From positions 1 to 55,256 of the forward strand of contig JABDKN010000277.1 of NCBI GenBank assembly GCA_013002205.1: a stretch of 55,256 bases of DNA. Reading direction: 5' to 3'. This DNA comes from Granulosicoccus sp. (GTDB lineage Bacteria > Pseudomonadota > Gammaproteobacteria > Granulosicoccales > Granulosicoccaceae). The notes under the pieces were generated by a model, which was not told the origin of the DNA, ran no database searches, and worked only from the letters and a program-made list of their open reading frames with translations. This document shows positions 3,617 to 20,344 of the stretch, in pieces; within the stretch, counting starts at the first letter, position 1; the number at the start of each line of letters is the position of its first letter. Position numbers and translations under genes: made by a program.

Positions 3617-4399
3617 ATGCGTTTTTACATACCCGACTGGCGGGATGCGCGTGAATTGGCCGCCAGGTGCCTGAAAATTGGCTCGCGATGCGTGATTTGT
3701 GACCGTCCGGGACGCCCGGATGTCGATATCTGTGACGATTGTGAAAGCTGGCTGCCACGCTGCCACCAGACTGATGGGTCAGGTTTGACGCGATGGCTGT
3801 GTCTGGCCTGCGGTGATGAATCGACTCACCGGGCACCGGCGATAGCCAGGCACTCGGGGTGCTGTGAGGATTGCCTGGCGGCCGGCGGGCCATTCTCCCG
3901 AATCGTGGCACCTTATCGCTACGATTTCCCGGTCGACCGATTGATTCGACGGCTTAAATACCATGATCAACGGTCACTGGCCAGAGTGTTCGGGACATTG
4001 CTGGCCGATGCGGTCAAGGCGGCTGATGAGACCCGGCCGTTGCCCGATCTGCTGGTGCCTGTGCCCCTGCACCGCAGCCGTCGACGCGTGCGTGGCTATA
4101 ACCAGTCCGCCGATCTGGCACGCTGGTGCGCACGGGAGCTGGGGCTCAGGTGCGCTCAGCGAGCCGCTGACAGGGAATATGACACCGGATCCCTGGCAGG
4201 TCTGAGCAGGCTGCAGCGGCAACACCGTATCCTGGGTGCCTTCCGTGCAGACCCACTGGTTGCCGGGCAGCACGTGGCCATTGTCGATGACGTGCTGACC
4301 AGTGGTTCGACGGCGCGAGAGCTGGCCAGGGAGCTCTACGACACCGGTGTGTCATCGGTGGAACTCTGGGTTCTGGCGCGTACTGCCAGTTCGCGCTGA
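3617..4399 (+). CDS. comF: ComF family phosphoribosyltransferase-like protein
   Basis: A 260-residue protein. The N-terminal third is a cysteine-rich zinc-finger region with several CxxC pairs (C-V-I-C, C-D-D-C, C-L-A-C, C-E-D-C). The C-terminus is a type I phosphoribosyltransferase fold with the PRPP-binding motif V-A-I-V-D-D-V-L-T-S-G-S-T near residues 223-235. ComF proteins support uptake of transforming DNA in naturally competent bacteria, and the gene is often simply conserved in gammaproteobacteria. I chose ATG at 3617 because AAGGA lies 9 bases upstream; a TTG at 3611 would be too close. The 3' end overlaps the convergent GTPase gene by 64 bp. Confidence 0.88.
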   Translation: MRFYIPDWRDARELAARCLKIGSRCVICDRPGRPDVDICDDCESWLPRCHQTDGSGLTRWLCLACGDESTHRAPAIARHSGCCEDCLAAGGPFSRIVAPYRYDFPVDRLIRRLKYHDQRSLARVFGTLLADAVKAADETRPLPDLLVPVPLHRSRRRVRGYNQSADLARWCARELGLRCAQRAADREYDTGSLAGLSRLQRQHRILGAFRADPLVAGQHVAIVDDVLTSGSTARELARELYDTGVSSVELWVLARTASSR

Positions 4400-6054: not shown

Positions 6055-6211
6055 AGCAGGCAGATCGGACCGATGGAGGTCAAGGGTAAATGCAACAGGA
6101 TACACGCAACCCTTCATGGATAAGCACTGCAACGACAAGGCGGACGGTGTGACCCTGCGGTATAGTCCTGAACTCGACCACCGTCCACCCAAACTTAGGG
6201 AGCAACACGAG

Positions 6212-6694
6212 ATGATAAAAGAAGGCGACAGAATTCCAGCGGTTACCTTGAAGCAGATGACCGCGGCCGGTCCGACCGACGTACCCCTGGCTGACTACTG
6301 CGCAGGCCGTAAGGTGATCCTGTTCGGTCTGGTCGGCGCGTTTACCCCTCCCTGCTCTGCGTCCCACGTACCCGGGTATGTGGATCAGGCACAGGCACTG
6401 CGGGCTAAAGGGGTGGAGGCGATCGCCTGTGTGTCCACCAGTGATTTCTTTGTCATGGATGCCTGGGGAAAGAGTCTGGGCACCGGAGACAGCGTTGATA
6501 TGCTGGCAGATGGCAACCATGAATTCACGCGTGCGGCGGGTCTGACGCTGGATCTCAGCAGCGTGGGACTGGGTGAGCGTATTCATCGGTCTGCCATGGT
6601 TGTGGATGACGGTGTGATCACGTATCTGGCCGTCGAGCCAGATTCCAATTCGGTGACCGTCAGCTCCGCCGAGGCCGTACTGGCCAAGCTGTGA
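6212..6694 (+). CDS. Peroxiredoxin of the Prx5 type
   Basis: A 160-residue thiol peroxidase that reduces hydrogen peroxide and alkyl hydroperoxides. The peroxidatic site reads F-T-P-P-C-S-A-S-H-V-P-G-Y, with Cys48 in the position expected for Prx5/AHP1-like enzymes. Length fits the single-domain family, with no fused glutaredoxin. I chose the start at 6212 because AGGGAG lies 9 bases upstream; the longer frame from 6116 adds a non-conserved N-terminus. The next gene follows after 18 bp, so both may be cotranscribed. A further Cys (residue 30) could act as a resolving partner, but this is uncertain. Confidence 0.88.
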   Translation: MIKEGDRIPAVTLKQMTAAGPTDVPLADYCAGRKVILFGLVGAFTPPCSASHVPGYVDQAQALRAKGVEAIACVSTSDFFVMDAWGKSLGTGDSVDMLADGNHEFTRAAGLTLDLSSVGLGERIHRSAMVVDDGVITYLAVEPDSNSVTVSSAEAVLAKL

Positions 6695-6712
6695 CGTAGC
6701 GCCCGCGCCGGC

Positions 6713-7777
6713 ATGAGGCGACTGCTGAGCACCCGCCCGATCCGTTATCTGCCGACGGTAAGCCTGGGAATAGCCGGAGGGGGGATCGCACTGCTCCTGC
6801 AATTTCCCATCCCCTGGTTACTCGGTAGTCTGCTTTTCTGTGCCGTGGGCAGCCGGGCAGGTCTGCCGGTGCGCAGCCTGCCTGGTGTACTGGAGCGCTG
6901 GATGCGCGTGGCCATTGGTGTGTCGCTGGGTCCATCGGTGGCCTCCAGTATGCAGGTGTCCGGGGCGGACCTGCCATTTGCCGTGGTGGCGGCATTGGGC
7001 ATCACCACATTGACCGTGGCTGCCGGAACACCCTGGTTCGAACAGCGCGTCGGATTGCCCAGGCCTGCTGCATTCCTGTGCGCTTTACCGGGCGGTCTGT
7101 CCATGTTGCTGGCACTGTCCGGTGACACGGGCAATCGTGCCGAGGTGCTGCTGGTGCATGCCGTCAGGGTCGTCATCGTGGTGGTCTCCATCTCGTTGCT
7201 GGCCCGCATGCTGGGGGTGCCCCCGGAACCTGATCCGTTGCTTGCCAGCCTCGACTGGCACAACGACACTTCACCCTGGGTACTGGCCGGTCTGGTCATC
7301 GTCTGTTTCATGCTGGCCGAGAGACTGAGGATCGCCGGCGGGCATGTCATCATTCCCATGATCATTGCTGCGTGCATAGCCGCCTTCACTGAGATCGACA
7401 TCGCACCGCCGATGGTGGTCAAGACCATTGCCATGCTGGTCTTCGGCATGGTCATCGGTTGTGAGGTCGCCAACGGCCCGCGTGAACGGTATTACCAGCT
7501 GTTTGCCGCGTCTGCGGTTTTCACGATCGTCATCATGGCCGTGGCCGCGATGTTTGCCATGGTGCTGACACAATTGATCGATCAGCATTTTCTGGTGCTG
7601 TTCCTGTCACTGGCACCGGGTGGTATTGCCGAGGTCAGTCTGGTTGCCCTGGCACTGGGTCTGGATGCGGGCCTGGTCGCACTGGTTCACAGCTGTCGCT
7701 TCATCTATATCATCACCGCCGGGCCCGTCGGGTTGCGCATGCTGCGCAAGCGACAGGTTCGCACCCCGAAGGCGTAA
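6713..7777 (+). CDS. AbrB-type (COG3180) inner-membrane protein
   Basis: A 354-residue, highly hydrophobic protein with about ten predicted membrane segments arranged as two related halves. Each half begins with a short G-G-I/A-L-L or P-W-L-L-G-S type segment. This matches the Gneg_AbrB_dup family, often misnamed as ammonia monooxygenase or as an AbrB transcriptional regulator. No DNA-binding domain is present. Members are thought to be transporters, but no substrate is established. The ATG lies 18 bp after the peroxiredoxin stop, which suggests an operon. The gene ends 56 bp before the LacI promoter. Confidence 0.75.
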   Translation: MRRLLSTRPIRYLPTVSLGIAGGGIALLLQFPIPWLLGSLLFCAVGSRAGLPVRSLPGVLERWMRVAIGVSLGPSVASSMQVSGADLPFAVVAALGITTLTVAAGTPWFEQRVGLPRPAAFLCALPGGLSMLLALSGDTGNRAEVLLVHAVRVVIVVVSISLLARMLGVPPEPDPLLASLDWHNDTSPWVLAGLVIVCFMLAERLRIAGGHVIIPMIIAACIAAFTEIDIAPPMVVKTIAMLVFGMVIGCEVANGPRERYYQLFAASAVFTIVIMAVAAMFAMVLTQLIDQHFLVLFLSLAPGGIAEVSLVALALGLDAGLVALVHSCRFIYIITAGPVGLRMLRKRQVRTPKA

Positions 7778-7833
7778 TCGGCGACTCGCTGAGCCTGCGA
7801 TTCACCCACTGACAGCCCTGCCTGAATTGTGTC

Positions 7834-7861
7834 TTGACTGGAACAACAATTGTGTTAGGAT
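7834..7861 (+). promoter_or_regulatory. Sigma70-like promoter of the sugar-uptake operon
   Basis: TTGACT at 7834-7839 and TAGGAT at 7856-7861 are spaced by 16 bp. The predicted start of transcription falls at about 7867-7869, inside the adjacent operator, so repressor binding would block initiation. Confidence 0.75.
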
Positions 7862-7865
7862 GTAT

Positions 7866-7879
7866 CCGAAACGTTTCGG
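7866..7879. promoter_or_regulatory. LacI-family operator (perfect 14-bp palindrome)
   Basis: CCGAAACGTTTCGG is a perfect palindrome with the central CG typical of LacI/GalR-family sites. It lies 4 bp after the -10 element and 70 bp before the lacI-type gene, so the regulator probably represses its own operon. I did not notice a second copy in the window by eye. Confidence 0.8.
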
Positions 7880-7949
7880 GTCACAGTATCCAGGTGACGA
7901 AACAGGAATCGGTCGGGGCGCATTCCGACAACGGATTTGCCGAGGTTTG

Positions 7950-9077
7950 ATGTCGAACACAGGCAACAGGAAGGGAACCTTGAAGCGGCTGGCTGCAGAA
8001 CTGGAGCTGTCGGTGACCACCGTATCGCGGGCACTCGGCGGATATACCGATGTGGCGGACGCTACCCGGCAGCGCGTTCTGGACGCTGCCACACGCAACG
8101 CTTATGTGCCCAATGCGGCAGGCAGGATGCTGGTCACCGGGCGCAGCGGTTTCATCGGTCTGTTGCTGCCGCTGCGCGATCGCGCCAGACTGGACCCGTT
8201 CCTGGGCGAGTACATTGCCGGTCTCAGTGAAGCACTGGCCGAGCGCGGACGCGACCTGTTCATGGCGACGGTGGCATCCCGGCAATCCGAGCTCGATGTG
8301 CTCAGGCACGTGGTGGAGTCGGGTCGGGCCGACGGCATCGTGCTCAACCGCATCGGCGAGTGTGATGAGCGTGTCGACTACCTCGTCAGCCGGGGTTTTC
8401 CCTTCGTGACGCACGGCCGCACGCTGGAGGCGCAAGATCGGTACAGCTGGGTCGACACCGATGGCGCAACGGCGTTCGCTGACACTTTCCGATGGCTGTA
8501 CCAGCTGGGGCATCGCCGTTTCGGACTGCTGTCGATTACTGAAAACATGACGTTTCGCAGACATCGCGAAGAGGGCTTCAGGCGAGCCGTCGCCGAGCAG
8601 GACGATCCACAGGTCAGTGTCGTCGCCACTCACGTCCCCCGTTTCGATGTGGCAGCGCGCCAGCAGGCCGTGCACACCATGCTCGCAGACACCGCTCGTC
8701 CTACCGCGATTCTGGCCCTGACCGATGAACTGGCACTGTGCGCGCTGGAACTGGCCAGCGGACTCGGTATCCAGGTGCCGGATCAGCTGAGTGTCGTCGG
8801 TTTCGACAACATTCCCGAATCTGCCTTTTCCACGCCGGGCCTGACCACCTTTGATCAGTGCACGCGCGAAGCTGCCCGACAGTTGGCTACCCTGCTGCTG
8901 GACTCACTGGACTCACTGGACTCGCCGGACGGGCAGAGCGGCACCACCCACACATTGATCACTCCAGCGTTGGTCAAGCGCGGCAGTCATGCGCCAGCAC
9001 CTGGCGCACCCCACACTGTTCACGGAACTGTGCCGGCGAACAGAGCAACCACTACCACCAGAGGAAGTTATTCATGA
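7950..9077 (+). CDS. LacI-family transcriptional repressor of the uptake operon
   Basis: A 375-residue regulator. The N-terminal helix-turn-helix is typical (L-K-R-L-A-A-E-L-E-L-S-V-T-T-V-S-R-A-L, then Y-V-P-N-A-A-G-R hinge). A periplasmic-binding-protein-like ligand domain follows, with A-L-T-D-E-L-A and V-V-G-F-D-N-I-P-E-S near residues 255-295. I chose ATG at 7950 because the longer frame starting at 7620 overlaps the AbrB-type gene and puts 110 foreign residues before the helix-turn-helix. The stop overlaps the next gene's ATG (ATGA at 9074-9077), so regulator and binding protein are translationally coupled. The C-terminus has a Ser/Thr/Gly-rich extension beyond the usual family end and a triple L-D-S repeat. 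Confidence 0.92.
   Translation: MSNTGNRKGTLKRLAAELELSVTTVSRALGGYTDVADATRQRVLDAATRNAYVPNAAGRMLVTGRSGFIGLLLPLRDRARLDPFLGEYIAGLSEALAERGRDLFMATVASRQSELDVLRHVVESGRADGIVLNRIGECDERVDYLVSRGFPFVTHGRTLEAQDRYSWVDTDGATAFADTFRWLYQLGHRRFGLLSITENMTFRRHREEGFRRAVAEQDDPQVSVVATHVPRFDVAARQQAVHTMLADTARPTAILALTDELALCALELASGLGIQVPDQLSVVGFDNIPESAFSTPGLTTFDQCTREAARQLATLLLDSLDSLDSPDGQSGTTHTLITPALVKRGSHAPAPGAPHTVHGTVPANRATTTTRGSYS
8898..8924 (+). repeat. Three 9-bp tandem repeats in the LacI-type gene
   Basis: CTGGACTCA, CTGGACTCA, CTGGACTCG occur in tandem and encode L-D-S three times. It is in frame and lies past the conserved ligand-binding core. Confidence 0.8.
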
Positions 9078-10342
9078 AATCGAGAAATATCCTGATGTCG
9101 CTGGCCATGGCCACCGGCTTGTCCACTGTCGCAACCGGAGCCGCCAACGCGGAAGTTCTGTTCTGGTCGACACAGGCCAATCCCCCCGAGGAAGCCCAGG
9201 CCATGCGGGAGACCGTGCTGTCCGGCTTTGCGGCGGGCGCCGACTTCCAACCCAGTGAAGGCGGGCCCTGGCTGACGCGTATCCAGGCTGAACTGCAGGC
9301 AGGTGAAGGCAAGATCGGTGTTCTCGGTTCACTGCACGGTGACCTGATCGAACTCAGTGATGGCCTCACTGATCTGTCGGATATCGATACCGCCGGTGTC
9401 AACAGCACGTTTCTGGAACTGGGCAAGCTGGGGACCGACCAGCAGAAGTATTTCCCCTGGATGCAGGCGACCTACATCATGGCAGCCAACAGGAAGGCGC
9501 TGGAATTCCTTCCCGAGGGGGCCGATGTCAATGCACTGAGCTATGACCAGCTGATCGCCTGGGCAAAAACGCTGGCAGAGGAGACCGGTTCTCCCAAGTT
9601 CGGGTTTCCGGCAGGCCCCAAGGGATTGAAACACCGTTTCTTCCAGGGGTATCTGTACCCCTCCTACACCAACTCCATGGTCACCAAGTTCCGCTCTGCC
9701 GAGGCCGAAACTGCCTGGAACAAGTTCAAGGAGCTGTGGAGCTATACGAACCCCGGCTCCACCAGTTATTCATTCATGCAGGAGCAGTTGCTGACCGATG
9801 AAGTCTGGGTCGTGTTCGATCATACCTCCCGACTGGCGGACGCATTCAACCAGCGGCCCGATGATTTCATCGGCTTTCCGGCACCTGCAGGTCCGACCGG
9901 CCGGGGTTTCATGCCGGTGGTCGTCGGCATCGGGGTGCCCACCTCAGCTCCTGACGTGGATGCGGCCAAGAGTCTGGTCACCTACCTGAGCCAGCCTGAG
10001 GTGCAGGTGGAGACACTCAGGGCTACCAACTTCTTCCCGGTGGTCGAGGTGGCTTTGCCCGATGACATGCCCGATTCGGTGAAAATTGCCGGTGCCGCCA
10101 TTGCCGCGATGACCGGCTCAGCCGATGCAAACCCTGGTCTTCTGCCGGTGGGTCTGGGCGACCTGGGTGGTAAATTCAATGCGGTTTACGTGGATAGCTT
10201 CGAGCGAATCGTGCTGGCCGGCCAGGATGTGCGCACAGTGCTCGATGATCAGGCCGATGCGCTGCGCAAGATCATGGATGAGGCAGGTGCTCCCTGCTGG
10301 GCGCCGGATGCAGCCTCGGATGGTGCGTGCCCGGTCGACTAG
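9074..10342 (+). CDS. ABC sugar transporter, periplasmic solute-binding protein
   Basis: A 422-residue family 1 extracellular solute-binding protein (COG1653). The signal peptide ends at A-N-A (residue 26) before E-V-L-F-W-S. The mature region has the two-lobe features of sugar binders, including W-V-V-F-D-H-T-S-R and a P-A-P-A-G-P-T-G-R-G-F loop. Two Cys near the C-terminus (A-P-C-W and G-A-C-P) may form a disulfide. A GAGGAAG ribosome binding site sits inside the end of the LacI gene. From the GH63 hydrolase in the same operon, the ligand may be a glycosyl-glycerate or a related small heteroside. A strong hairpin follows the gene, as is common where the binding protein must outnumber the permeases. 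Confidence 0.9.
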   Translation: MKSRNILMSLAMATGLSTVATGAANAEVLFWSTQANPPEEAQAMRETVLSGFAAGADFQPSEGGPWLTRIQAELQAGEGKIGVLGSLHGDLIELSDGLTDLSDIDTAGVNSTFLELGKLGTDQQKYFPWMQATYIMAANRKALEFLPEGADVNALSYDQLIAWAKTLAEETGSPKFGFPAGPKGLKHRFFQGYLYPSYTNSMVTKFRSAEAETAWNKFKELWSYTNPGSTSYSFMQEQLLTDEVWVVFDHTSRLADAFNQRPDDFIGFPAPAGPTGRGFMPVVVGIGVPTSAPDVDAAKSLVTYLSQPEVQVETLRATNFFPVVEVALPDDMPDSVKIAGAAIAAMTGSADANPGLLPVGLGDLGGKFNAVYVDSFERIVLAGQDVRTVLDDQADALRKIMDEAGAPCWAPDAASDGACPVD

Positions 10343-10358
10343 TGTCAATGTAACTGTC

Positions 10359-10382
10359 CCGCCCGGCATGCTTGCCGGGCGG
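10359..10382 (+). terminator. Intercistronic hairpin after the binding-protein gene
   Basis: CCGCCCGGCA (10359-10368) and TGCCGGGCGG (10373-10382) form a perfect 10-bp stem with a 4-base loop, followed by TTTGAT. It lies between the binding protein and first permease. It probably acts as a partial terminator or mRNA stabiliser that skews expression toward the binding protein. Confidence 0.75.
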
Positions 10383-10429
10383 TTTGATCGTCACTCCGGA
10401 ATTTAACGGTTTTTCTCAAGAGGTATTCC

Positions 10430-11278
10430 ATGTATCCGAAAAGCCTTCCCTACCTGTTGCTGTTGCCCGCTACCCTGTTTCTGGTGTTGTTTTTCCTGTA
10501 TCCATTCACCCTGGTGGCCTGGCAGGCCTTTACCACCGACACCGGAGACTTCACCGGCGAGTTTTTCCAGGAGATGGCCACTCACTGGAAATTCAATACG
10601 GCCATGTTGAACACGTTCCTGCTGGTCCTGGCCGTGGTGCCGTTCCAGATGGTCCTGGCCCTGTATATGGCGACGCTGGTCAATGGTATGACACGTGGCC
10701 GGGACTTCATCCTCTATATCTGGACCATACCGCTGGGCATTTCGGATCTGGCCGCAGGACTCATCTGGCTGGCGATCTTTGAACAATCGGGATTTCTCAA
10801 CAGCATGCTGCACGGGCTCGGCGTCATCGAGCAGCCTGTGGGCTTTCTCGGCTACCAGAACAAGGGCACCATCTTCCTGGCCATCGTGCTGGCCGAGACC
10901 TGGCGCGCAACCGCGATCGTCCTGGTCATCCTGGTGTCCGGCATGGGGCTGATTCCAAAGGAGTACGCGGAAGCAGCTGAAGTGTTCGGTGCCAGTCGCT
11001 GGCAGCGCTTCATTCGGGTCACCCTGCCGATGCTCAAACCGAGCCTGCAGACCGCGATGATATTGCGCGTCATCCTGGCCTTTGAAGTATTCGCCGTCGT
11101 CGTGGCCCTGGGGGGAACCAACCTGCCGGTGCTGATGAGTGAAGTCTTTACCTGGCAGTATGAACTGCGCGATGCCAATGTGGCTGCGGCCTATGCACTG
11201 GTCATCCTGGCGATCTCCATTGCCTGCACACTGGTGATCATGTGGGCGCTGCGTGTACCCAAGGGAGCAAGAGTATGA
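10430..11278 (+). CDS. ABC sugar transporter permease, MalF/UgpA type
   Basis: A 282-residue inner-membrane permease with six predicted transmembrane segments. The cytoplasmic EAA loop, which docks on the ATPase, is visible near residues 180-205 as E-Y-A-E-A-A-E-V-F-G-A-S, followed by R-V-T-L-P-M-L. Length and loop fit the CUT1 family of carbohydrate importers. The gene follows the binding-protein gene by 87 bp, across the hairpin, and its stop overlaps the next permease start (ATGA). Confidence 0.9.
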   Translation: MYPKSLPYLLLLPATLFLVLFFLYPFTLVAWQAFTTDTGDFTGEFFQEMATHWKFNTAMLNTFLLVLAVVPFQMVLALYMATLVNGMTRGRDFILYIWTIPLGISDLAAGLIWLAIFEQSGFLNSMLHGLGVIEQPVGFLGYQNKGTIFLAIVLAETWRATAIVLVILVSGMGLIPKEYAEAAEVFGASRWQRFIRVTLPMLKPSLQTAMILRVILAFEVFAVVVALGGTNLPVLMSEVFTWQYELRDANVAAAYALVILAISIACTLVIMWALRVPKGARV

Positions 11279-12132
11279 GTCAGTCTACGCAAACCGCCAA
11301 ACTCATGGTCGATGGTCCGGTACACGGACGCGGTCCCTGGCATCGATACGTGTTCACCGGCATCGTCGTGCTGCTATGCCTGTGGGTGCTGGTACCCATC
11401 TATCTGCTGGTGGTCAATACCCTCTCTTCACCGGCTGATGTCAACGCCTTTCCCAAGCGACTGGTTCCGGACGTGAACACGGAAAGCGTCCGGTTCTTCC
11501 TCAACTTTGCGGGAGTCGGGCAGGCCCTGTGGAGCTCGGTCAAGGTGGCGACATTGACCATGATCCTCTCCATCCTGGCAGGTGCACCCGCAGGATATGC
11601 GCTGTCGCGTTTCGATTTCAGGGGCAAGGGTTCGTTTCGTGTGCTGGTCCTGATGACCCGGGCGTTTCCCCTGCCATTGCTGGCGCTGCCCCTGGCGGTC
11701 ATGTACATCCGTGTGGGCCTGGATGATTCGATACTGGGACTGGCGCTGGTGCATACGACACTGGCACTGCCGTTTGCAGTGCTGATTACCTATTCCCTGT
11801 TTTCCGGCATCCCGATCGAACTCGAGGAAGCCGCCTGGACACTGGGTTGCAACCGGCTCGAGGCATTCCAGAAAGTGATACTGCCGCTTGTCCTGCCGGG
11901 TATCACGGCCTCGGCGATATTTGCCTTCGTCATTTCGTGGAACGAGGTGTTTGCAGCGGCGGTCCTGACCATCGAGAACCGAACGCTGCCGGCGTTCCTG
12001 TTACAGGGTCTGTCCGTGGCACCGCTGCACCTGAAGTTTGCCGGTGGAGCCGTGCTGGTACTACCGGCGCTGATATTCATCTTCCTGGTCAGGAAGTATC
12101 TGTTTTCCATGTGGGGCATAGCCAATCGCTAG
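11275..12132 (+). CDS. ABC sugar transporter permease, MalG/UgpE type
   Basis: A 285-residue inner-membrane permease, partner of the preceding one. Six membrane segments are evident, and the EAA loop reads E-L-E-E-A-A-W-T-L-G-C-N, then V-I-L-P-L-V-L-P-G. The ATG at 11275 overlaps the upstream TGA by four bases; the longer frame from 11242 is not needed. MalG-type permeases carry the second half of the translocation path. The ATPase gene begins 62 bp downstream. Confidence 0.9.
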   Translation: MSQSTQTAKLMVDGPVHGRGPWHRYVFTGIVVLLCLWVLVPIYLLVVNTLSSPADVNAFPKRLVPDVNTESVRFFLNFAGVGQALWSSVKVATLTMILSILAGAPAGYALSRFDFRGKGSFRVLVLMTRAFPLPLLALPLAVMYIRVGLDDSILGLALVHTTLALPFAVLITYSLFSGIPIELEEAAWTLGCNRLEAFQKVILPLVLPGITASAIFAFVISWNEVFAAAVLTIENRTLPAFLLQGLSVAPLHLKFAGGAVLVLPALIFIFLVRKYLFSMWGIANR

Positions 12133-12194
12133 CGAGCAATGTTCACTGTCGACCAACGCTTCCTCTCACCACTCAACTCATAGCAGGTGTCATC

Positions 12195-13268
12195 GTGGCA
12201 GAAATCAAAATCAGGCAAGTCGCCAAACAGTACGGATCGACCCATGCCTTGCATTCCATCGATCTGGAAATCGCCGACCAGGAATTTCTGGTTCTACTCG
12301 GTGCGTCGGGATGTGGCAAGACCACGTTGCTGAGAATCGTCGCAGGTCTGGAAACCGCCACCTCGGGCGAAGTCTGGATTGGCGACAAGCGCGTCGATAA
12401 GCTGCCGCCGCGTGATCGCAATATTGCCATGGTATTCCAGAACTACGCCGTGTTTCCGCACCTGACGGTGTTCGAGAATATCGCCTTTGGCCTGCGCATG
12501 GCCAAGTTGCCGCAAACCGAAGTGGATCGGCGGGTTACTCGAACGGCGGAGCTCATGCACATCGAGGCTCTGCTGAAGCGCTATTCAGGGCAACTCAGTG
12601 GAGGCCAGCGACAGCGTGTGGCAGTGGCCCGCGCGCTGGCCATGGAGCCGGAAGTTCTGCTGATGGATGAGCCACTGTCCAACCTCGATGCACTGTTGCG
12701 TATGGAAATGCGCGCCGAACTGAAAACCGTGCTGGCCGAGAGCAAGACCACGACCATCTATGTGACCCATGATCAGGTGGAAGCCATGAGCATGGCTGAT
12801 CGAATCGCCATCATGAACAAGGGCGAAATCGTCCAGGCCTCCTCTGCGGTGGAGGTCTATCGTAATCCTGCAGCGCACTTCGTCGGCTCCTTCATCGGTA
12901 ATCCACCGATGAACTTCCTGGATGCAACATCTGCCGGAGAAGGGGTCTGGAATGTGGCAGGCGTGCAGTTGAAAGGGCCCGTCAGTACCCAGAAGAAACT
13001 GCAGTTCGGCATTCGCCCGGAAGATATCATCGTGCATCAGGAAGGTTCGGCGGAGGCGATGGGTGATCGACCTTCTATGGTCGCCACCGTTCGTGTCCTG
13101 GAGCCGCTTGGCTCGCACTTGCTGGCCAGCTGCAGGATCGGTGATGAGATACTCCGGGTCGTGCTGGACAGTGATGCCCCGGTCAAGCCCGGGGATGAGT
13201 TGCGATGGTCGCCGGCGCCGGACAGGATCCGCTGGTTCGATCCTGCGTCCGAGCTTGCCGTCGCCTGA
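12195..13268 (+). CDS. ABC sugar transporter ATPase, MalK/UgpC type
   Basis: A 357-residue nucleotide-binding subunit. Walker A is G-A-S-G-C-G-K-T-T, the signature is L-S-G-G-Q-R-Q-R-V, Walker B is V-L-L-M-D-E-P-L-S-N-L-D, and the H-loop is T-H-D-Q-V-E-A-M. A C-terminal TOBE/OB regulatory domain (about 240-357) includes F-G-I-R-P-E-D-I, as in MalK-like proteins. I chose GTG at 12195, preceded by AGCAGG, because residue 2 onward matches the family N-terminus (A-E-I-K-I-R-Q-V). The long upstream frame from 11847 overlaps the permease. It powers import by the two permeases. Confidence 0.92.
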   Translation: MAEIKIRQVAKQYGSTHALHSIDLEIADQEFLVLLGASGCGKTTLLRIVAGLETATSGEVWIGDKRVDKLPPRDRNIAMVFQNYAVFPHLTVFENIAFGLRMAKLPQTEVDRRVTRTAELMHIEALLKRYSGQLSGGQRQRVAVARALAMEPEVLLMDEPLSNLDALLRMEMRAELKTVLAESKTTTIYVTHDQVEAMSMADRIAIMNKGEIVQASSAVEVYRNPAAHFVGSFIGNPPMNFLDATSAGEGVWNVAGVQLKGPVSTQKKLQFGIRPEDIIVHQEGSAEAMGDRPSMVATVRVLEPLGSHLLASCRIGDEILRVVLDSDAPVKPGDELRWSPAPDRIRWFDPASELAVA

Positions 13269-13319
13269 GCGCCCGTCCTGATACGCTCCTGTCAACCACC
13301 GTAGTCGAGCCTGCCTGCC

Positions 13320-14603
13320 ATGACCCAGACCACCCATCGTGAAGACCTTTATCAACGCGCGTCAGAAATCCTGAGGCTCAATGATCGTGGGCACTACACG
13401 GTTCCGACCAGTGGACTGTATCCCTTTCAGTGGAACTGGGATTCCTGCCTGGTATCACTCGGACAGCAGCACCTGGACGAAGAGCGTGCCTGGACGGAAC
13501 TCACCACCCTGTTCGAGCACCAGTGGGATGACGGCATGGTGCCTCATATCATTTTCCACCAGCACGATGATGGCTATTTCCCCGGGCCGGATGTGTGGAA
13601 CACTGGCCGGGTCGTGCAGACAACCGGTATCACGCAGCCGCCGGTGGCCGGCTTTGCCGCCGCCCGCCTGTTCGAACGTGCACAGGACACGGCGCTGGCC
13701 AGGCGACAGGCGGGGCATCTACTGCACGGAATCGATCGCTGGCATGAGTGGTTTTATCGTTGCCGTGATCCACATGGCACTGGCCTTGTGGCACTGATTC
13801 ACCCGTGGGAGTCCGGACGCGATAATTCGGTTGATTGGGACACTGCACTGGACGCTGTGTCGACAGACGGGCTGGAGCCTTATCAGCGCCGCGATCTTCA
13901 GCACGCCCATGCCGATCATCGGCCAACCATGGCACAGTATGATCGGTATATCTCGCTGGTACAGCATTTCCGTTCACTCAAATGGGACAATGCACTGCTG
14001 CATGACATGTCGCCGTTCAAGGTAGTCGATCCCGGTTTCAATGCCATTCTCATTCGTTCCTGCACCGACATTGCCAAGCTGGCCGATGAACTGGGTGAAG
14101 CGGCCATTGCCGCACGAAATCGCGCGCGTGCAGACAAGGCTCTGGCAGCACTGGATACGCTGTGGAGTGACATGCTGCAACAGTACGTCTGTTTCGACCG
14201 GGTCAGTGGCAAGGCGGTGGACAGCGCATCAGTGGGCGGGATTCTGCCAGCGTTTGCAGGTGTTCCCCCGGCGCGCATGGACTGCCTGGCCAGGCGACTC
14301 ACGGCATTGGCAAAGCAGGTCAACTACCTCGTACCCAGTCATGACCCGGCAGACAGTCGCTATGATGGCAAACGGTACTGGCGCGGACCCGCCTGGCTCA
14401 TCATCAACTACCTGATCGCCGATGGATTGGACAGGGCTGGTCACCATGAGCTGGTCGAGGACATCAGGCAGGCCAGCCTGAAACTGATCGATGAATCCGG
14501 ATTCGCCGAGTATTATGACCCGCAGACCGGTGAGGCACTGGGTGGCGATACTTTCACCTGGACTGCAGCCATGGTCATGGAATTTCTGCGCAGTTCCGAT
14601 TGA
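13320..14603 (+). CDS. GH63-type glycoside hydrolase, probable mannosylglycerate/glucosylglycerate hydrolase
   Basis: A 427-residue cytoplasmic enzyme, no signal peptide. The sequence has the (alpha/alpha)6-barrel features of the GH63 MGH/GGH group. These are G-L-Y-P-F-Q-W-N-W-D-S near residue 40, G-I-T-Q-P-P-V near 105, H-P-W-E-S-G-R-D-N-S near 162 with the likely general-acid Asp, and G-F-A-E-Y-Y-D-P near 395 with the likely general base. These enzymes split alpha-mannosyl- or alpha-glucosyl-glycerate into sugar and glycerate. It is the last gene of the LacI/ABC operon, 51 bp after the ATPase, so it should process the imported substrate. Substrate choice cannot be set from sequence alone; trehalase-like activity on another alpha-glucoside is possible. 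Confidence 0.78.
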   Translation: MTQTTHREDLYQRASEILRLNDRGHYTVPTSGLYPFQWNWDSCLVSLGQQHLDEERAWTELTTLFEHQWDDGMVPHIIFHQHDDGYFPGPDVWNTGRVVQTTGITQPPVAGFAAARLFERAQDTALARRQAGHLLHGIDRWHEWFYRCRDPHGTGLVALIHPWESGRDNSVDWDTALDAVSTDGLEPYQRRDLQHAHADHRPTMAQYDRYISLVQHFRSLKWDNALLHDMSPFKVVDPGFNAILIRSCTDIAKLADELGEAAIAARNRARADKALAALDTLWSDMLQQYVCFDRVSGKAVDSASVGGILPAFAGVPPARMDCLARRLTALAKQVNYLVPSHDPADSRYDGKRYWRGPAWLIINYLIADGLDRAGHHELVEDIRQASLKLIDESGFAEYYDPQTGEALGGDTFTWTAAMVMEFLRSSD

Positions 14604-14624
14604 GAGCACATCACCGGCATCCTG

Positions 14625-15440
14625 TTAGCGGGATCGTCGGTACAGGATCAGACTCAGGTCATCCGGATACCCCACTTCACTGTGCATGATCTGCTGGCAG
14701 CGTGCCTGCAGAGCCTCGATACGACTGCGCAGAGGGCCCGATCGGATGATGCTGGCGATATCGTCCAGTTCGACGTTGTCCGTCAGACCATCGCTGCACA
14801 GGAGCAGGGTATCAAAGCGGGCAAGCGACAGCGTTGCCCCTATCTCTATGCGCATCTCCTGTGTGCCTACCAGATTGAGCACGATGTTACGTTCCTCGCT
14901 GCGAGTTGCCTGATCCGCATCCAGCAGACCGGCTTCGATGCCAAGCGACACTGGCGAGTGGGAAACGGTCTGCAGGCGCATGCGTCCACGCTGGCCGGTA
15001 ATCAGCACACTGGAGTCGCCGACATGGTAGGGGCGGATCTGGTTATGGCTGATCTCCACGACTGTCACGGTCGTGGCGGAACCCTTGCCCTCGCCAAGCA
15101 GCTCCTGGTTGCAGGTTTCAATGGCATTGAGAATCGGGTTGCGCAGGTTTTCCGGGTCAACATCGGCATGGCTTAACATCTCCCTGAGCAGGGATACCTG
15201 TCGCTCAGAGGCCATTTCGCCCAGTGGATGCCCCCCCACACCATCTGCCACCGCCAGTATGGCGTGCTCATCATCCACCTGCAGGGCAAGGCAGGCATCC
15301 TCATTGGGGCCGGTCTTGATGTAACTCTTGGTGTAGTGCATGGCGCACTGGCCATTGGCGAGGGCGAAGGGTTCGGCAGAGAATTGCTCGGAGCGATGGC
15401 ACTGCAATACGCTGTGGCAGCACTGATCAGGGCTTAGCAT
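14625..15440 (-). CDS. PP2C-type Ser/Thr protein phosphatase
   Basis: A 271-residue phosphatase. Metal-binding motifs are visible: G-P-N-E-D (44-48), A-V-A-D-G-V-G-G-H (64-72), L-L-C-S-D-G-L-T-D-N and a final D-D-L-S. It belongs with PPM/PP2C enzymes that oppose Ser/Thr kinases. The ATG at 15440 overlaps the stop of the kinase gene by 7 bp (ATGCTAA), which supports coupled translation; a shorter version from Met34 (15341) is possible. It is the last gene of a minus-strand run with the kinase and a GTPase. The likely substrates are the kinase, the GTPase or a shared target. The gene converges on the GH63 gene with 21 bp between. Confidence 0.88.
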   Translation of the reverse strand: MLSPDQCCHSVLQCHRSEQFSAEPFALANGQCAMHYTKSYIKTGPNEDACLALQVDDEHAILAVADGVGGHPLGEMASERQVSLLREMLSHADVDPENLRNPILNAIETCNQELLGEGKGSATTVTVVEISHNQIRPYHVGDSSVLITGQRGRMRLQTVSHSPVSLGIEAGLLDADQATRSEERNIVLNLVGTQEMRIEIGATLSLARFDTLLLCSDGLTDNVELDDIASIIRSGPLRSRIEALQARCQQIMHSEVGYPDDLSLILYRRSR

Positions 15441-16165
15441 TCCAGGGATTCCAGGGATTCCAGGTACTGACGCATCTGCGTCGCATTGTTGTAGTTTTTC
15501 AGTATCAACGAACGTTTCAATCCTCGGCAGACCTGCTTGATCGCGGGTGGCTGATGCCGGTAATGCCTTGGTCCGCCAATCAGTTCATGGAGGATCTGGG
15601 TCATGAAAATGACATCCTCGGCCAGATGGCTTTTGGTGGACCTGCCCCAATAGAACATGTCCAGTAACTTCAGTTCAAAGTTGAGACCGCTGCGCACGAT
15701 GATGATGTTATCCGTGTGCAGGTCGCCATGGTACTCGCCCAGCGAATGGATTTCTTCCATGCCACGTACCAGGGCATACAGTACATGCAAAGCCTCATAG
15801 GGATGCAGTCGCTTGCCGGGTTTGCCTTGCTGGTATTCGGACAGTAGCTGGCCTTCGACCAGCTCGGAAATCAGCACCATGACACGCTGCTTGCGAAACT
15901 GGATGTGTTCCTCGGTATGGTACCTGACGACCATGGAACAACAGCGCAGCTTGTGCAGTTTTTGCGCATAGGCAGTGACCGATCGGTGGTTGTTGTCCCG
16001 GTGAGGAAAAAACAGCTTGGCTGCGTGTTCGATATCGGTTCTCAGGTCGCGTATCTTGTAGACCTCGCCTTCCCAGCCCTGGCCGAGTTTTTCCAGCACC
16101 TCGTATTTACCCGCAATTACACGTCCAGCAGTAAAATTGAACGACTGTATCGGACTGCTTTCCAT
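15434..16165 (-). CDS. Atypical eukaryotic-like Ser/Thr kinase
   Basis: A 243-residue soluble protein with a compact kinase fold. The glycine loop is L-G-Q-G-W-E-G-E-V-Y (27-36) and the ATP lysine is probably Lys50 (A-A-K-L). The catalytic loop reads Y-H-G-D-L-H-T-D-N (145-153), with Asp148 and Asn153. The DFG position reads L-L-D-M-F (167-171), so Phe and Gly of DFG are altered while the metal Asp169 remains. HGDLHxxN is seen in aminoglycoside-kinase-like and LPS-kinase-like families as well as some Ser/Thr kinases. It has no transmembrane or sensor domain. Its 3' end overlaps the PP2C start and it lies 101 bp after a GTPase gene, suggesting one signalling unit. The C-terminus carries a triple L-E-S/C repeat. 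Confidence 0.82.
   Translation of the reverse strand: MESSPIQSFNFTAGRVIAGKYEVLEKLGQGWEGEVYKIRDLRTDIEHAAKLFFPHRDNNHRSVTAYAQKLHKLRCCSMVVRYHTEEHIQFRKQRVMVLISELVEGQLLSEYQQGKPGKRLHPYEALHVLYALVRGMEEIHSLGEYHGDLHTDNIIIVRSGLNFELKLLDMFYWGRSTKSHLAEDVIFMTQILHELIGGPRHYRHQPPAIKQVCRGLKRSLILKNYNNATQMRQYLESLESLEC
15439..15465 (-). repeat. Three 9-bp tandem repeats at the kinase 3' end
   Basis: On the plus strand ATTCCAGGG occurs at 15439-15447 and 15448-15456, and ATTCCAGGT at 15457-15465. On the coding strand this gives L-E-S, L-E-S, L-E-C before the stop. The last unit includes the start codon of the PP2C gene. Confidence 0.8.
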
Positions 16166-16266
16166 GGAGCGGATTCTCTGGAGCCACTGTCAACGCACGC
16201 TACCAGCCTGACGATGTTTCGACGACTGTCGAGTCCATCGTCCCTGATTGCACGCACGACGCCCTG

Positions 16267-18036
16267 TCAATTCACGGCTTGTTCCAGCACCTTGCGAAGT
16301 TCAGGTTCAAGCTGTTGAGCAAACAGATTCTCATGCGTCAGGGTCGAGGTCAATGCATCGAGTTCCTGCACGAGTACACCCTGAAGCAGATGGGTATGAA
16401 TGTGCTGGCGCTGCCGCTCTTTCAGTTCGTGCTTGATGGTATCGAGGTATTTTCCCAACGCACTTTCGGTCAATAATGTGGTGACCGAGAGCATGGCCGG
16501 AGCCAGGACCAGATCGGCTGGCGCCAGTCCACCGCTCTTCAGGGCCAGCGCAACGCCGGCTGCGTCGGCCGTGGCTCTGGCAGCGCGCAGGGTGTTCAGC
16601 AAGGTCGGTTGTGCCTGCAGTTGCTCGAACAAACGATGAGCTGCGGCCTCGACCTCGGGTTCAAATTGCTTGCGTACCGCCTCACTCTGCGCCAGATAGC
16701 GTTGACGGATCAGCGGTTCACGGTGTCGAAAGGCCTGCGCCAGCGCTTGCCAGAATGGGTGTGGCGGTTGTTCAAGCAGTGCGCCCTGCAGGGACACCAG
16801 TGTGGTATCGAGTATTCGTTCCAGTACCTGTGCTTCCTGGCTGATGGGTACCACTTGCCTGGCCCTGTATCCGACCGGATCCACCTGCCTGTCATACGCA
16901 TCCCGACCAAGCCCCAGTAATTTGCGTGCAGGCCAGGTGACCAGGTGACGCGCGCGGCCCAGCGCTGGTGCAATGCCGGGAATTTCCAGCAGGGTCAGCA
17001 GTTCAGCCAGCGCGCGATTGAACGTGTCGTATTTGCCCGGATCGTCGAGATAGTCACGCTCATACTGAACCCGGGCGCGCACGATGGCTGAGTCGATGAG
17101 TTCTCTCCAGCTGGTCGCTGCCGATCGCTCCTCGATCAGGGGCGCCAGCCACTGCTCGCGGTGCTGCTCGATGAAGGCCTGGGCGAAGCGCACGGTCGCC
17201 TGTCGGTCAACCTGGTTCCGCAGCGTGTGAAGTGCCGCCTGCAGCGCAGACAGTTGGGCGTCGGGTAGTGCGACGGACCAGGCCGTCGTATTGCGACGCA
17301 CGAAGGGCAGCGGGATGATGGGTGGCAGCGAGGTGTCGAGGCGTTCCTGGTAACGGATCGTGAACGCCCGCAATACCGTCGTTTCATCCTGTGGGTCGAG
17401 CTTGTTGATGCACACCAGCAGTGGCTGATGCAACGGCTCGATCAGCTGCAACATGTCCCAGACACGTTTGTCACCATACTTGTCCTTGCTGACCACCAGG
17501 ATGACGACGTCGGCAATGGCCACGCTCCTCATGACGGCGTGTGTATAGCTTGTTGCATCGATAGAATCAAAATCCGGGGTATCCCATACAACCGCCGGGT
17601 TGATCAGCGCTGCCGGGCCGGCTGTGACCGATTCCAGGACATAGCTATCCAGTGAGGCGGTTGCCAGCGCGTCAGCGGATACCCGGTGCAGCGGTTTCAG
17701 CATCGGGCTCAGGAGCTGCAGTGCCTGTTCGGAATAACCGTTGGCATAGCCCTGGGCATGAACCGTGAAACCAGCCAGGGCGCTGATGCCGGCAGCGTTC
17801 GTATCCAGCAGGACATTGACCAGTGTGCTTTTACCCGATTGAGTCGGACCGACGAGCGCGACCTGCAGGGCGTGGTCCGGGTGAGACTCGCACAGGCGGC
17901 ACTTGTCAAGCAATGCATCGGCCAGTTGCAGGGTGTTCAAGGCAGTCAGGGACTGCGCTGAAGGCGTACTCTGCTTTCCCAGTACTGCGGCATGCCTGTG
18001 CAGCAGTTGAGAGACCCACGAATTGTCGTCACTCAT
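16267..18036 (-). CDS. Soluble GTPase paralog next to kinase and phosphatase
   Basis: A 589-residue protein with an N-terminal GTPase domain and a long helical C-terminus. G1 is G-P-T-Q-S-G-K-S (63-70), G3 is D-T-P-D-F-D-S (152-158) with the DxxG glycine replaced by Asp, and G4 is a canonical N-K-L-D (211-214). The region around 505-535 is hydrophobic and alanine-rich (A-P-A-D-L-V-L-A-P-A-M-L), but no clear transmembrane pair is seen, unlike the relative at 4336-6054. Its ATG overlaps the ubiA stop by one base (TGATG), so it is coupled to ubiA. Downstream are the kinase and PP2C genes. It may be a dynamin-like or AAA-like switch controlled by phosphorylation; function is unknown. Confidence 0.75.
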   Translation of the reverse strand: MSDDNSWVSQLLHRHAAVLGKQSTPSAQSLTALNTLQLADALLDKCRLCESHPDHALQVALVGPTQSGKSTLVNVLLDTNAAGISALAGFTVHAQGYANGYSEQALQLLSPMLKPLHRVSADALATASLDSYVLESVTAGPAALINPAVVWDTPDFDSIDATSYTHAVMRSVAIADVVILVVSKDKYGDKRVWDMLQLIEPLHQPLLVCINKLDPQDETTVLRAFTIRYQERLDTSLPPIIPLPFVRRNTTAWSVALPDAQLSALQAALHTLRNQVDRQATVRFAQAFIEQHREQWLAPLIEERSAATSWRELIDSAIVRARVQYERDYLDDPGKYDTFNRALAELLTLLEIPGIAPALGRARHLVTWPARKLLGLGRDAYDRQVDPVGYRARQVVPISQEAQVLERILDTTLVSLQGALLEQPPHPFWQALAQAFRHREPLIRQRYLAQSEAVRKQFEPEVEAAAHRLFEQLQAQPTLLNTLRAARATADAAGVALALKSGGLAPADLVLAPAMLSVTTLLTESALGKYLDTIKHELKERQRQHIHTHLLQGVLVQELDALTSTLTHENLFAQQLEPELRKVLEQAVN

Positions 18037-18911
18037 CAGGCATCGAGTGCGTAATCCAGCACCAGAGCAGCAAACAGGGTCATGCCCAGCCAGTGGTTGT
18101 TGAGGAAGGCCTGCACACAGCGCGCTGGTTCACGATCACGGGAAATCCGGAGCTGGTAGACGATGAATCCGAACGACAGAGCCCAACCGGCAAAGTAGAT
18201 GACTCCGCGCCCGGCCTGCCAACCGATCGCGGCGAGCATGAGCATCACCAGTACCTGTAGAAAACCAACGACCAGCAGGTCGAACTCACCAAAGAGAATA
18301 GCGGTGGATTTGACCCCCAGCTTCAGGTCATCGGGTCGATCTGCCATCGCATACAGGGTGTCATACGCCACTGCCCAGATCACTGCCGCCAGATACAGCC
18401 ACCAGGCCTGTGCCGGCAAGGTGTTGGTCTGCGCTGCATATGCCATGGGAATGGCGAATCCGAACGCAGCGCCGAGAACGATCTGCGGCCAGTGTGTGTA
18501 GCGCTTGGCATAGGGGTAGGCGATAGCCAGGATGGCGGCCACCAGAGACAGGCGAATGGTCAGCGCATTGGTCAGCAACACGAGCAGGAATGCAATGCCC
18601 AGAAGCACGGCAGTTGCCAGCAGTGCATCGGTTTCACTCAAGGCTCCGGTTGCCAATGGTCGGTGCCGTGTTCTTGCCACATGCCCGTCGATATGCCGAT
18701 CGGCGTAATCGTTGATGGCGCAGCCTGCAGATCGGGTCAGTACGGTGCCCAGGACGAAGATCGCCAATACATCGAGTCTCGGTACACCTTCTGCGGCAAA
18801 CCAGAGTGACCAGAGCATGGGCCACATCAGCAGGTAGATGCCGATTGGACGATGCAGTCTGGTCAATTCAACGAAATGCGGTAATTTGCGTCCAAGTTCG
18901 GTGATATTCAC
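18036..18911 (-). CDS. ubiA: 4-hydroxybenzoate octaprenyltransferase
   Basis: A 291-residue integral membrane prenyltransferase of ubiquinone synthesis. It joins an all-trans polyprenyl chain to 4-hydroxybenzoate. Both Asp-rich motifs are present: I-N-D-Y-A-D-R-H-I-D near residues 68-77 and Y-D-T-L-Y-A-M-A-D-R-P-D-D near 190-202. Conserved K-S-T-A-I-L-F-G follows. I chose GTG at 18911 because the resulting N-terminus (N-I-T-E-L-G-R-K, then R-P-I-G) aligns in length with E. coli UbiA; another GTG at 18965 adds 18 non-conserved residues. It is divergent from gor. The stop is coupled to the GTPase gene, so the operon may read ubiA-GTPase-kinase-PP2C. Confidence 0.93.
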   Translation of the reverse strand: MNITELGRKLPHFVELTRLHRPIGIYLLMWPMLWSLWFAAEGVPRLDVLAIFVLGTVLTRSAGCAINDYADRHIDGHVARTRHRPLATGALSETDALLATAVLLGIAFLLVLLTNALTIRLSLVAAILAIAYPYAKRYTHWPQIVLGAAFGFAIPMAYAAQTNTLPAQAWWLYLAAVIWAVAYDTLYAMADRPDDLKLGVKSTAILFGEFDLLVVGFLQVLVMLMLAAIGWQAGRGVIYFAGWALSFGFIVYQLRISRDREPARCVQAFLNNHWLGMTLFAALVLDYALDA

Positions 18912-18988
18912 GGTCGGGCAAGTTCGATCAGCAGTTGGCGTGGGTATAGTAGCCTGAATGCCCACAGTGTGAAGACGAGGAAACCGAT

Positions 18989-20344
18989 ATGTCCCGACAG
19001 TATGACTATGACCTGATCACCATCGGCGGCGGCAGTGGGGGCATAGCCACGGCCAACCGTGCGGGCAGTTACGGTGCGCGTGGCCTGGTCATCGAAAGCG
19101 ACGAGGTGCTCGGTGGTACCTGTGTCAATCGAGGCTGCGTGCCCAAGAAGGTCATGTGGTATGCCGGCGTCATGGCGCATTCCCTGCGCGATGCCGAGGG
19201 TTACGGATTCGATGTCACGGTCAATGATTTCGACTGGCACGCCCTGGTGGGCAAACGCCAGCAATACATCAGTAATATCAACAATGCCTACGCTGAATAC
19301 CTTGGCAGGAACAATGTAGAGATTCTGGGCGGCCGTGCCCGGCTGCTGGACAGGCACACGGTTGAGGTGAAAGGTCAGCGTTACAGCGCAGAGCGCATCG
19401 TACTGGCACCGGGTGGTACTCCCCGGGTACCGGATATTCCGGGTAAGGAGCACGCCGTTACCTCCGACGGATTCTTCGAATTTACCTACCAGCCGCGTCG
19501 TGTCCTGGTTCTGGGTGCCGGTTACATTGCCGTGGAGCTGACTGGCATGATGAACGCCATGGGAACCGAGGTGACGCTGGCGATACGCCATGATGCTTTC
19601 CTGCGAGACTTCGATCTGCTGCTGCAGGAACGGCTCATGGAGGAGATGGTCGGCGATGGCGTCGATATCCAGACCTATTTCACTGCGGCGGCGCTTGAGC
19701 GCACTGGTGATCTCATCCATGCCATCGGAGAGGATGGTGAACGGCTCGAGGATTATGATGCGGTCATCTTTGCCATCGGCCGATCACCGGCCACGGCGGA
19801 GTTGGGTCTGGAAGCAGTAGGCGTCGAGCTGGACGAACGGGGCTATATCACGGTGGACAAATACCAGGAAACCAGCGTTTCGGGAATCTACGCCATCGGT
19901 GATGTCACCGGTCAGGCCGAACTGACACCGGTGGCCATCGCCGCCGGTCGTCGCCTGGCCGATCGCCTGTACGATCATCAGGCCGGCCGGCATCTCGACT
20001 ACGGGTTGATACCCACCGTGGTTTTCAGCCATCCGCCGCTGGCGACGGTGGGCATGACCGAGGCCCAGGCCAGGGAACGGTACGGCGAAGCGGTACGCTG
20101 CTATGAAGTCAACTTCACCGCCATGTACAACTCGTTCACGGAGCACAAGACGAAAACCGCCATGAAACTGATTGTCATGGGAGACGATGAAAAGGTCATC
20201 GGTATTCACATGATCGGACTGGCAGCAGACGAAATGCTGCAGGGCTTTGCCGTCGCGATGCGCATGGGGGCGACGAAACGGGATTTTGATGACACGATAG
20301 CCATTCACCCCACCAGTAGTGAGGAGCTGGTCACACTCCGATAG
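18989..20344 (+). CDS. gor: Glutathione-disulfide reductase
   Basis: A 451-residue FAD enzyme that reduces oxidised glutathione with NADPH. FAD-binding G-G-G-S-G-G is at 13-18, and the redox motif [13 protein letters not shown] gives Cys45 and Cys50. A second nucleotide-binding segment reads [10 protein letters not shown] near 170, and A-I-G-D-V-T precedes the dimerisation domain. The catalytic His-Pro pair sits in A-I-H-P-T-S-S-E-E near the C-terminus. Length matches Gor. GAGGAAA precedes the ATG. It is divergent from ubiA, with 77 bp between their starts. Confidence 0.95.

Follow-up and report, generated by a model that had tools for sequence, protein, structure and literature searches.

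In a contig of Granulosicoccus sp. (JABDKN010000277.1, positions 1 to 55,256; the whole of these 55,256 nucleotides is called the window here), a GTPase, a small kinase and a PP2C-type phosphatase are encoded one after another on the same strand, between positions 14,625 and 18,036. An original prediction, made from the letters alone, had joined the three into a single unit, with a GTPase governed by reversible phosphorylation as the simplest reading. The evidence favors a different account, to which we assign a probability of about 85%: the stretch carries parts of two independent two-gene units that meet at a variable site. One unit comprises the GTPase (GTPA, read as soluble) and a second, membrane GTPase (GTPB) encoded elsewhere in the window, and the other comprises the kinase and the phosphatase. 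What the original prediction said of the layout agrees with the coordinates of the open reading frames (ORFs) and with Pfam (Table 1). This holds for the positions of the genes, their shared strand, and the overlaps of the kinase with the PP2C gene and of the GTPase with ubiA. The motifs it named are also present, a G3 of the DxPD type (DTPDFDS) in GTPA and HGDLHTDN in the kinase. It is the grouping of the genes that does not hold.

Two gene pairs and their independence

Relatives were sought in three samples of genomes drawn by a tool, with 57 relatives of the organism, 369 genomes of its class and 299 of its phylum; ORFs were selected by length, with no gene finder. (Genomes are denoted below by G numbers and loci by L numbers.) GTPA is present in 37 of the 57 relatives, namely all 36 members of the family and one of 21 others, and GTPB is present in exactly the same 37. 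Within the class, GTPA and GTPB each turned up in 27 genomes, 26 of them in common (Fisher p 1.3e-37, with no phylogenetic correction); G398 has GTPA alone, and G339 has GTPB alone, at the edge of a contig. The phylum sample yielded GTPA in 1 of 299 genomes, that of the window itself. Outside the genus, the two genes are directly adjacent on one strand in 29 of the 30 loci that hold both. The apparent exception, L270, is an artefact of ORF calling, as the matches to GTPA and GTPB are 36 bases apart.

Within the genus, all 18 loci whose stretch includes both GTPase genes have them on one strand but 0.6 to 10 kb apart. In the 17 such loci other than the window (L035, L046, L051-L053 and L055-L066), the intervening antisense genes encode what we take to be a CobT-like vWA protein (about 600 aa), a peroxiredoxin (about 160 aa), or both. 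In nine stretches, including those of the four closest relatives (L047-L050), GTPB lies outside the fetched DNA, and in G023, it is about 27 kb from GTPA. The remaining neighbors of the two genes differ from family to family, so GTPA-GTPB looks self-sufficient. The constant partner of GTPA is thus GTPB, and the suggestion made in passing in the original prediction, that a membrane GTPase paralog 10 kb away could be a second part, is borne out by co-occurrence and adjacency.

The partner of the kinase is the PP2C phosphatase. Close relatives of the kinase occur in only 4 of the 57 genomes (the window's own, G032, G036 and G046), while 28 more give weak matches of the sort typical of kinases in general. 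Among named genomes, 119 relatives were found, of which 80 were kept (L090-L169), with 45-56% identity over nearly the full length. All 80 come from records titled as metagenome-assembled genomes. Their labels span many phyla, including Nitrospinota, Planctomycetota and, among the archaea, a member of Woesearchaeota, though some may reflect mis-binning. The family may be rare among the cultured bacteria of the collection searched. In 39 of 84 kinase loci, across phyla, a PP2C of the same family as the window's is encoded within 600 bases of the kinase and on its strand. As for the rest, it is near in 3 (in two of these, L096 and L135, the PP2C frames seem to overlap the kinase and so are probably adjacent), absent from the stretch in 35, and beyond judgment in 7 where the stretch is too short. 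Of 43 gammaproteobacterial loci, 32 have it next to the kinase, and in the other 11 none was found. These loci represent 43 of the 44 genomes of the class sample that carry the kinase, G293 being excluded, and one adjacent case (L277) is a PP2C frame that overlaps the kinase. The distance matrices of the kinase and the PP2C also correlate, with r 0.61 over 59 loci, against 0.30 for the best of 2000 shuffles, the phylogeny of the organisms being uncontrolled. The 59 were taken from 114 distinct kinases among 124 pooled loci, in which some genomes recur between samples; L088 and L121 are the same place.

The distributions of the two pairs are independent. No gene of the kinase or PP2C families was found in the 36 other GTPA stretches of the relatives sample (L031-L066, some of which end close to GTPA) or in 20 GTPA stretches of other families. 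Conversely, the search of 83 other kinase loci detected neither GTPase, and 40 further gammaproteobacterial kinase stretches gave nothing beyond one weak match of 17 bits (L299). A lone weak GTPase match in kinase locus L087 proved to be MnmE. In the class sample, the kinase shares 3 of its 44 genomes with GTPA, where 3.2 would be expected, and in the two besides the window's, the genes are on separate contigs. Among everything searched, GTPA adjoins the kinase in the window only, an outcome that the original prediction had itself named as counting against it.

A module in which the kinase phosphorylates GTPA, or both GTPases, and PP2C reverses the reaction to give a three-part switch is thus very improbable. 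The local arrangement speaks for it: the genes share a strand and are tightly spaced, the kinase and PP2C ORFs overlap by 7 bases (ATGCTAA), and the 101-base gap between GTPA and the kinase (16166-16266), which is the sole junction of the gene set without an overlap, has no terminator-like site by a simple scan. Such a module is nonetheless rejected on distribution, by the absence of each partner from the other's loci and by co-occurrence at the level of chance. Of the proposed coupling, the association of kinase and PP2C stands, by adjacency and by the correlation of distances, and the membership of GTPA does not. The remark that the set was not recognised as a named system is consistent with what was found: the GTPase, the kinase and the PP2C all fall below every curated NCBIfam cut-off, and Pfam assigns them only to general families.

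Perhaps the lineage has rewired its regulation: the kinase and PP2C would retain a set of conserved targets of their own and, through their place downstream of GTPA, would now be expressed together with it and act under the same conditions. The same strand, the short gap and the want of a terminator-like site are what one would expect. We consider rewiring unlikely. A scan of positions 14000-19200 for promoters, limited to sigma-70-type sites, gave nothing above chance (1 found vs 1.8 expected), with none in the gap. A private regulatory link may nevertheless exist within this single organism.

Some observations weigh against the account of two independent units. Co-transcription of the GTPase, kinase and PP2C genes in the window is possible, because they are on one strand with a gap of 101 bases and no terminator-like site. 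The 35 of 84 kinase loci with no family PP2C in the stretch, and likewise 11 of the 43 gammaproteobacterial loci, mean that the pairing of kinase and PP2C is not obligate. The nearest relatives of GTPA that were detected are just 66-67% identical to it, too distant to date the insertion or to show the arrangement in nearer species. Finally, the likeness of GTPA and GTPB to dynamins, considered below, comes from the arrangement of their genes and from weak profile matches.

The site where the pairs meet

Table 1. Genes and segments of the window. The Pfam scores for Pkinase, PP2C_2, MMR_HSR1 and UbiA each exceed the gathering score.
Feature	Positions	Strand	Remarks
GTPB, membrane GTPase	4336-6054 (ORF to 6192)	-	ATG at 6054 is the probable start and fits the family
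Variable segment	6713-16165	mixed	kinase, PP2C, glucosylglycerate-type hydrolase, ABC transporter genes, AbrB-type membrane protein
Probable compatible-solute operon	8858-14603	+	solute-binding protein, two permease-like ORFs, ABC ATPase-like ORF, hydrolase (permeases and ATPase named by sequence)
PP2C-type phosphatase	14625-15440	-	271 aa; PP2C_2 51.2 bits (Pfam)
Kinase, minimal, protein-kinase fold	15434-16165	-	243 aa; Pkinase 56.1 bits (Pfam)
GTPA, GTPase read as soluble	16267-18036	-	589 aa; MMR_HSR1 33.3 bits (Pfam)
ubiA	18036-18965	-	UbiA 215.9 bits (Pfam)

Synteny maps of 36 loci show a break between the two GTPase genes: where the window has its variable segment, other members of the genus have different genes in the same place. 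Between GTPA and the AbrB gene, L048 and L050 carry other genes, and L051 has just one, of 223 aa. The variable site looks like the recipient of the kinase-PP2C pair, which would have been acquired by insertion. No ends of a mobile element were found, the repeats within 4300-18100 being short, imperfect and chance-like. An origin from phage or plasmid was also considered and set aside: relatives of neither GTPA nor the kinase were found among viral contigs, and the 19 matches to the kinase on plasmids are distant (27-33% identity, 60-77% coverage). A chimeric contig is unlikely because genes of the genus lie on both sides of the variable segment.

On the upstream side, ubiA overlaps GTPA by one base (within TGATG). 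It is the habitual neighbor of GTPA within the family and adjoins it in 3 of the 20 loci of other families (L268, L272 and L273). The opposite strand of the variable segment carries what is, by its gene content, a probable operon for the uptake and breakdown of a compatible solute. Its hydrolase resembles the glucosylglycerate/mannosylglycerate type (NF047898, 359.6 bits, cut-off 550). No RNA element matched Rfam at the gathering score.

The GTPase pair and the dynamins

Homology between the two GTPases covers the G domain and extends past it (hhalign probability 99.0, E 4e-18), and they have in common the G3 (switch-II) motif DxPDFDS. GTPA has its G1 (GPTQSGKS) at 63, G3 (DTPDFDS) at 152 and G4 (NKLD) at 211. 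In GTPB, G1 is GGTGVGKS, G3 is DMPDFDS and G4 is a degenerate NHWD; its C-terminal part has two strongly hydrophobic stretches. In alignments of 15 of the 36 GTPA sequences and 14 of the 28 GTPB sequences, the residues D, P, D, F, D and S of G3 are invariant in the former and D, M, P, D, D and S in the latter. GTPA has a second conserved block beyond the G domain, at residues 466-530 (LNxLRAAR...KSGGL...DL..APAMLSVTTLLTESALG), in which a peak of hydrophobicity near 504 may mark a membrane-dipping element. A fold model of GTPA from the single sequence was of low confidence (predicted local distance difference test, pLDDT, 42.2).

A pair of large GTPases with neighboring genes recalls the paired bacterial dynamin-like proteins, such as Cj-DLP1/2 of C. 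jejuni, DynA/DynB of Streptomyces and LeoA/B/C. Most such pairs lie side by side in operons, which hints at a heterotypic complex, according to the relevant passage of PMC6104087. The PADLOC model of LeoA gives E 1.4e-8 with GTPA (the best stretch, 50-86, being part of the G domain) and 5.1e-5 with GTPB, and that of LeoBC gives 0.0002 with residues 57-186 of GTPA. Dynamin_N is above its gathering score of 27 for GTPB (29.7 bits), though MMR_HSR1 fits GTPB better (32.9 bits), and it is below the cut-off for GTPA (14.4 vs 27). The G3 motif of dynamins is DxPG, while GTPA and GTPB have DxPD. Among the profile matches to the PDB that were listed (the best 60 of 66 for GTPA and all 14 for GTPB), none was named a dynamin or bacterial dynamin-like protein; most were to Der, Era and other P-loop proteins. 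The same matches include weak ones to immunity-related GTPases (E 0.026-0.058), a group classed near the dynamins. The LeoA matches and the Dynamin_N score of GTPB point toward the dynamin-like pairs. By their G3 motif, the Dynamin_N score of GTPA and the PDB matches, GTPA and GTPB would still not be assigned to the dynamins.

Most likely, soluble GTPA and membrane-anchored GTPB would work together as heterotypic partners on the inner membrane. By analogy with the paired dynamin-like proteins, GTPA would engage GTPB through their G domains, and hydrolysis of GTP would power a membrane or assembly task. The small, cytosolic kinase, for its part, would act with PP2C to control the phosphorylation state of targets whose genes lie elsewhere. 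In this lineage, the kinase-PP2C pair and the sugar-uptake genes sit between GTPA and GTPB, and the pair would follow GTPA by happenstance. We tentatively propose, at somewhat less than even odds, two new systems. GTPA-GTPB may be an undescribed inner-membrane heterotypic GTPase machine of the Gammaproteobacteria, made of a soluble and a two-helix member that have the DxPDFDS switch II in common and are inherited together, and kinase-PP2C may be an unnamed signalling unit of many uncultured phyla, built on a loop-less kinase. Nothing on either pair was found in the open-access papers searched. GTPA-GTPB is an unnamed genetic unit, and work on GTPA should take in its membrane paralog GTPB and not the kinase; both unnamed pairs are of interest separately, and the three-gene set is not.

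A protein-kinase fold without an activation segment

The anatomy of the kinase was read from an alignment of 42 sequences (41 of the 80 kept loci plus the window) and from an AlphaFold2 model built on them (pLDDT 91.5). It has a G-loop (GQGWEGEV), a catalytic lysine (K50), HGDLHTDN at 146-153 and a metal-binding aspartate (D169); K50, H146, G147, D148, N153 and D169 are invariant in all 42. The best structural match of the model is PknB (Z 20.9, root-mean-square deviation 3.3, 222 residues). In 40 of the 42, D169 and D184, the latter taken to be the aspartate of helix F, are 15 residues apart; the activation segment and the APE region are thus missing. Glycine (G147) replaces the arginine of HRD in all 42 sequences. 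Helix C (58-72 in the model) has no conserved acid: 12 of the 42 have an acidic residue at position 60, and at most 3 have one at any other position. No strongly hydrophobic stretch and no extra Pfam domain were found in the protein. Its closest relative, at 64% identity, is the kinase of G032, a genome of the same family. This kinase is placed as its sister in the tree (support 0.991) and is located near mnmE, the GTPA of G032 being on a different contig.

Serine/threonine kinases of the Hanks type are known in pairs with PP2C phosphatases, as in PrkC/PrpC, Stk1/Stp1 and PknB/PstP. Some of these are named in passages of PMC1262709 and PMC1821047. The window's kinase is like them in its PknB-like fold and its adjacent Stp1-like PP2C (117 bits, cut-off 230). 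It differs in lacking an activation segment and a conserved helix-C acid, in having HGD where they have HRD, and in showing no strongly hydrophobic stretch or extra domain. An extended activation loop and the HRD arginine are given as marks of the ePK, pknB and HRK kinases in the pertinent passage of Kannan et al. (PMC1821047). The family thus fails the definition of pknB although it is folded like PknB, since it lacks both marks; it has the catalytic Lys, HxD, Asn and metal-binding Asp of pknB kinases but not their helix-C glutamate. HGDLxxxN and the absence of an extended activation loop are shared with Bud32/PRPK and other loop-less kinases of the protein-kinase-like fold (the match to Bud32 gives E 0.0011), but by sequence the kinase is nearer to Pkinase and by fold to PknB. 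Its partner is a PP2C, while that of Bud32 is Kae1. The phosphatase has a PP2C domain and the sequences NEDA, DGVGGH, DGLTD and DDLSL, which we take to be PP2C motifs, including the metal-binding aspartates. The possibility of a defence system was considered too: comparison with known anti-phage systems (PD-T4-6, MADS and Leo) gave kinase-domain and P-loop matches only, none of which spans a whole model.

With no activation segment, control of the kinase by phosphorylation of the loop seems unlikely. Its output may instead be set by expression, by a partner or by the phosphatase. The family offers a natural test of how protein kinases can be controlled without an activation segment.

Genes for AstE/AspA-type hydrolases occur near the kinase in L091, L122, L134 (Pfam-confirmed), L137, L154 and L162. 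L091 and L162 also have a RimK-like ATP-grasp ligase nearby, confirmed by Pfam in L162. In L092, L098 and L130, an ATP-grasp protein like D-Ala-D-Ala ligase (Pfam-confirmed in L130) is near the kinase, together with what is presumably a gamma-glutamyltransferase-like protein.

One might ask whether the kinase acts on small molecules or in peptide-ligase metabolism and not on signalling proteins. AstE/AspA-type genes, grouped by clustering with one confirmed by Pfam, lie within 6 kb of the kinase in five loci and adjacent to it in a sixth (L137), and three loci combine an ATP-grasp gene with a gamma-glutamyltransferase-like one. Also, the pertinent passage of PMC1821047 ascribes the loop to ePK, pknB and HRK only, implying that the small-molecule families are loop-less too. 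These loci, however, are a minority of the 84, some being close relatives of one another, and such genes are not near the kinase of the window. That a PP2C is so often the partner of the kinase, and that the kinase is folded like PknB, favors protein substrates, and the small-molecule reading is left with an outside chance.

Besides PP2C, the largest cluster of neighbors within 6 kb of the kinase is response-regulator-like (8 loci, named by sequence), followed by one of 7 loci. An MscS-type cluster is found anywhere in the stretch in 8 of the 84 loci, and an oxoprolinase is near the kinase in L109 (Pfam-confirmed) and L136.

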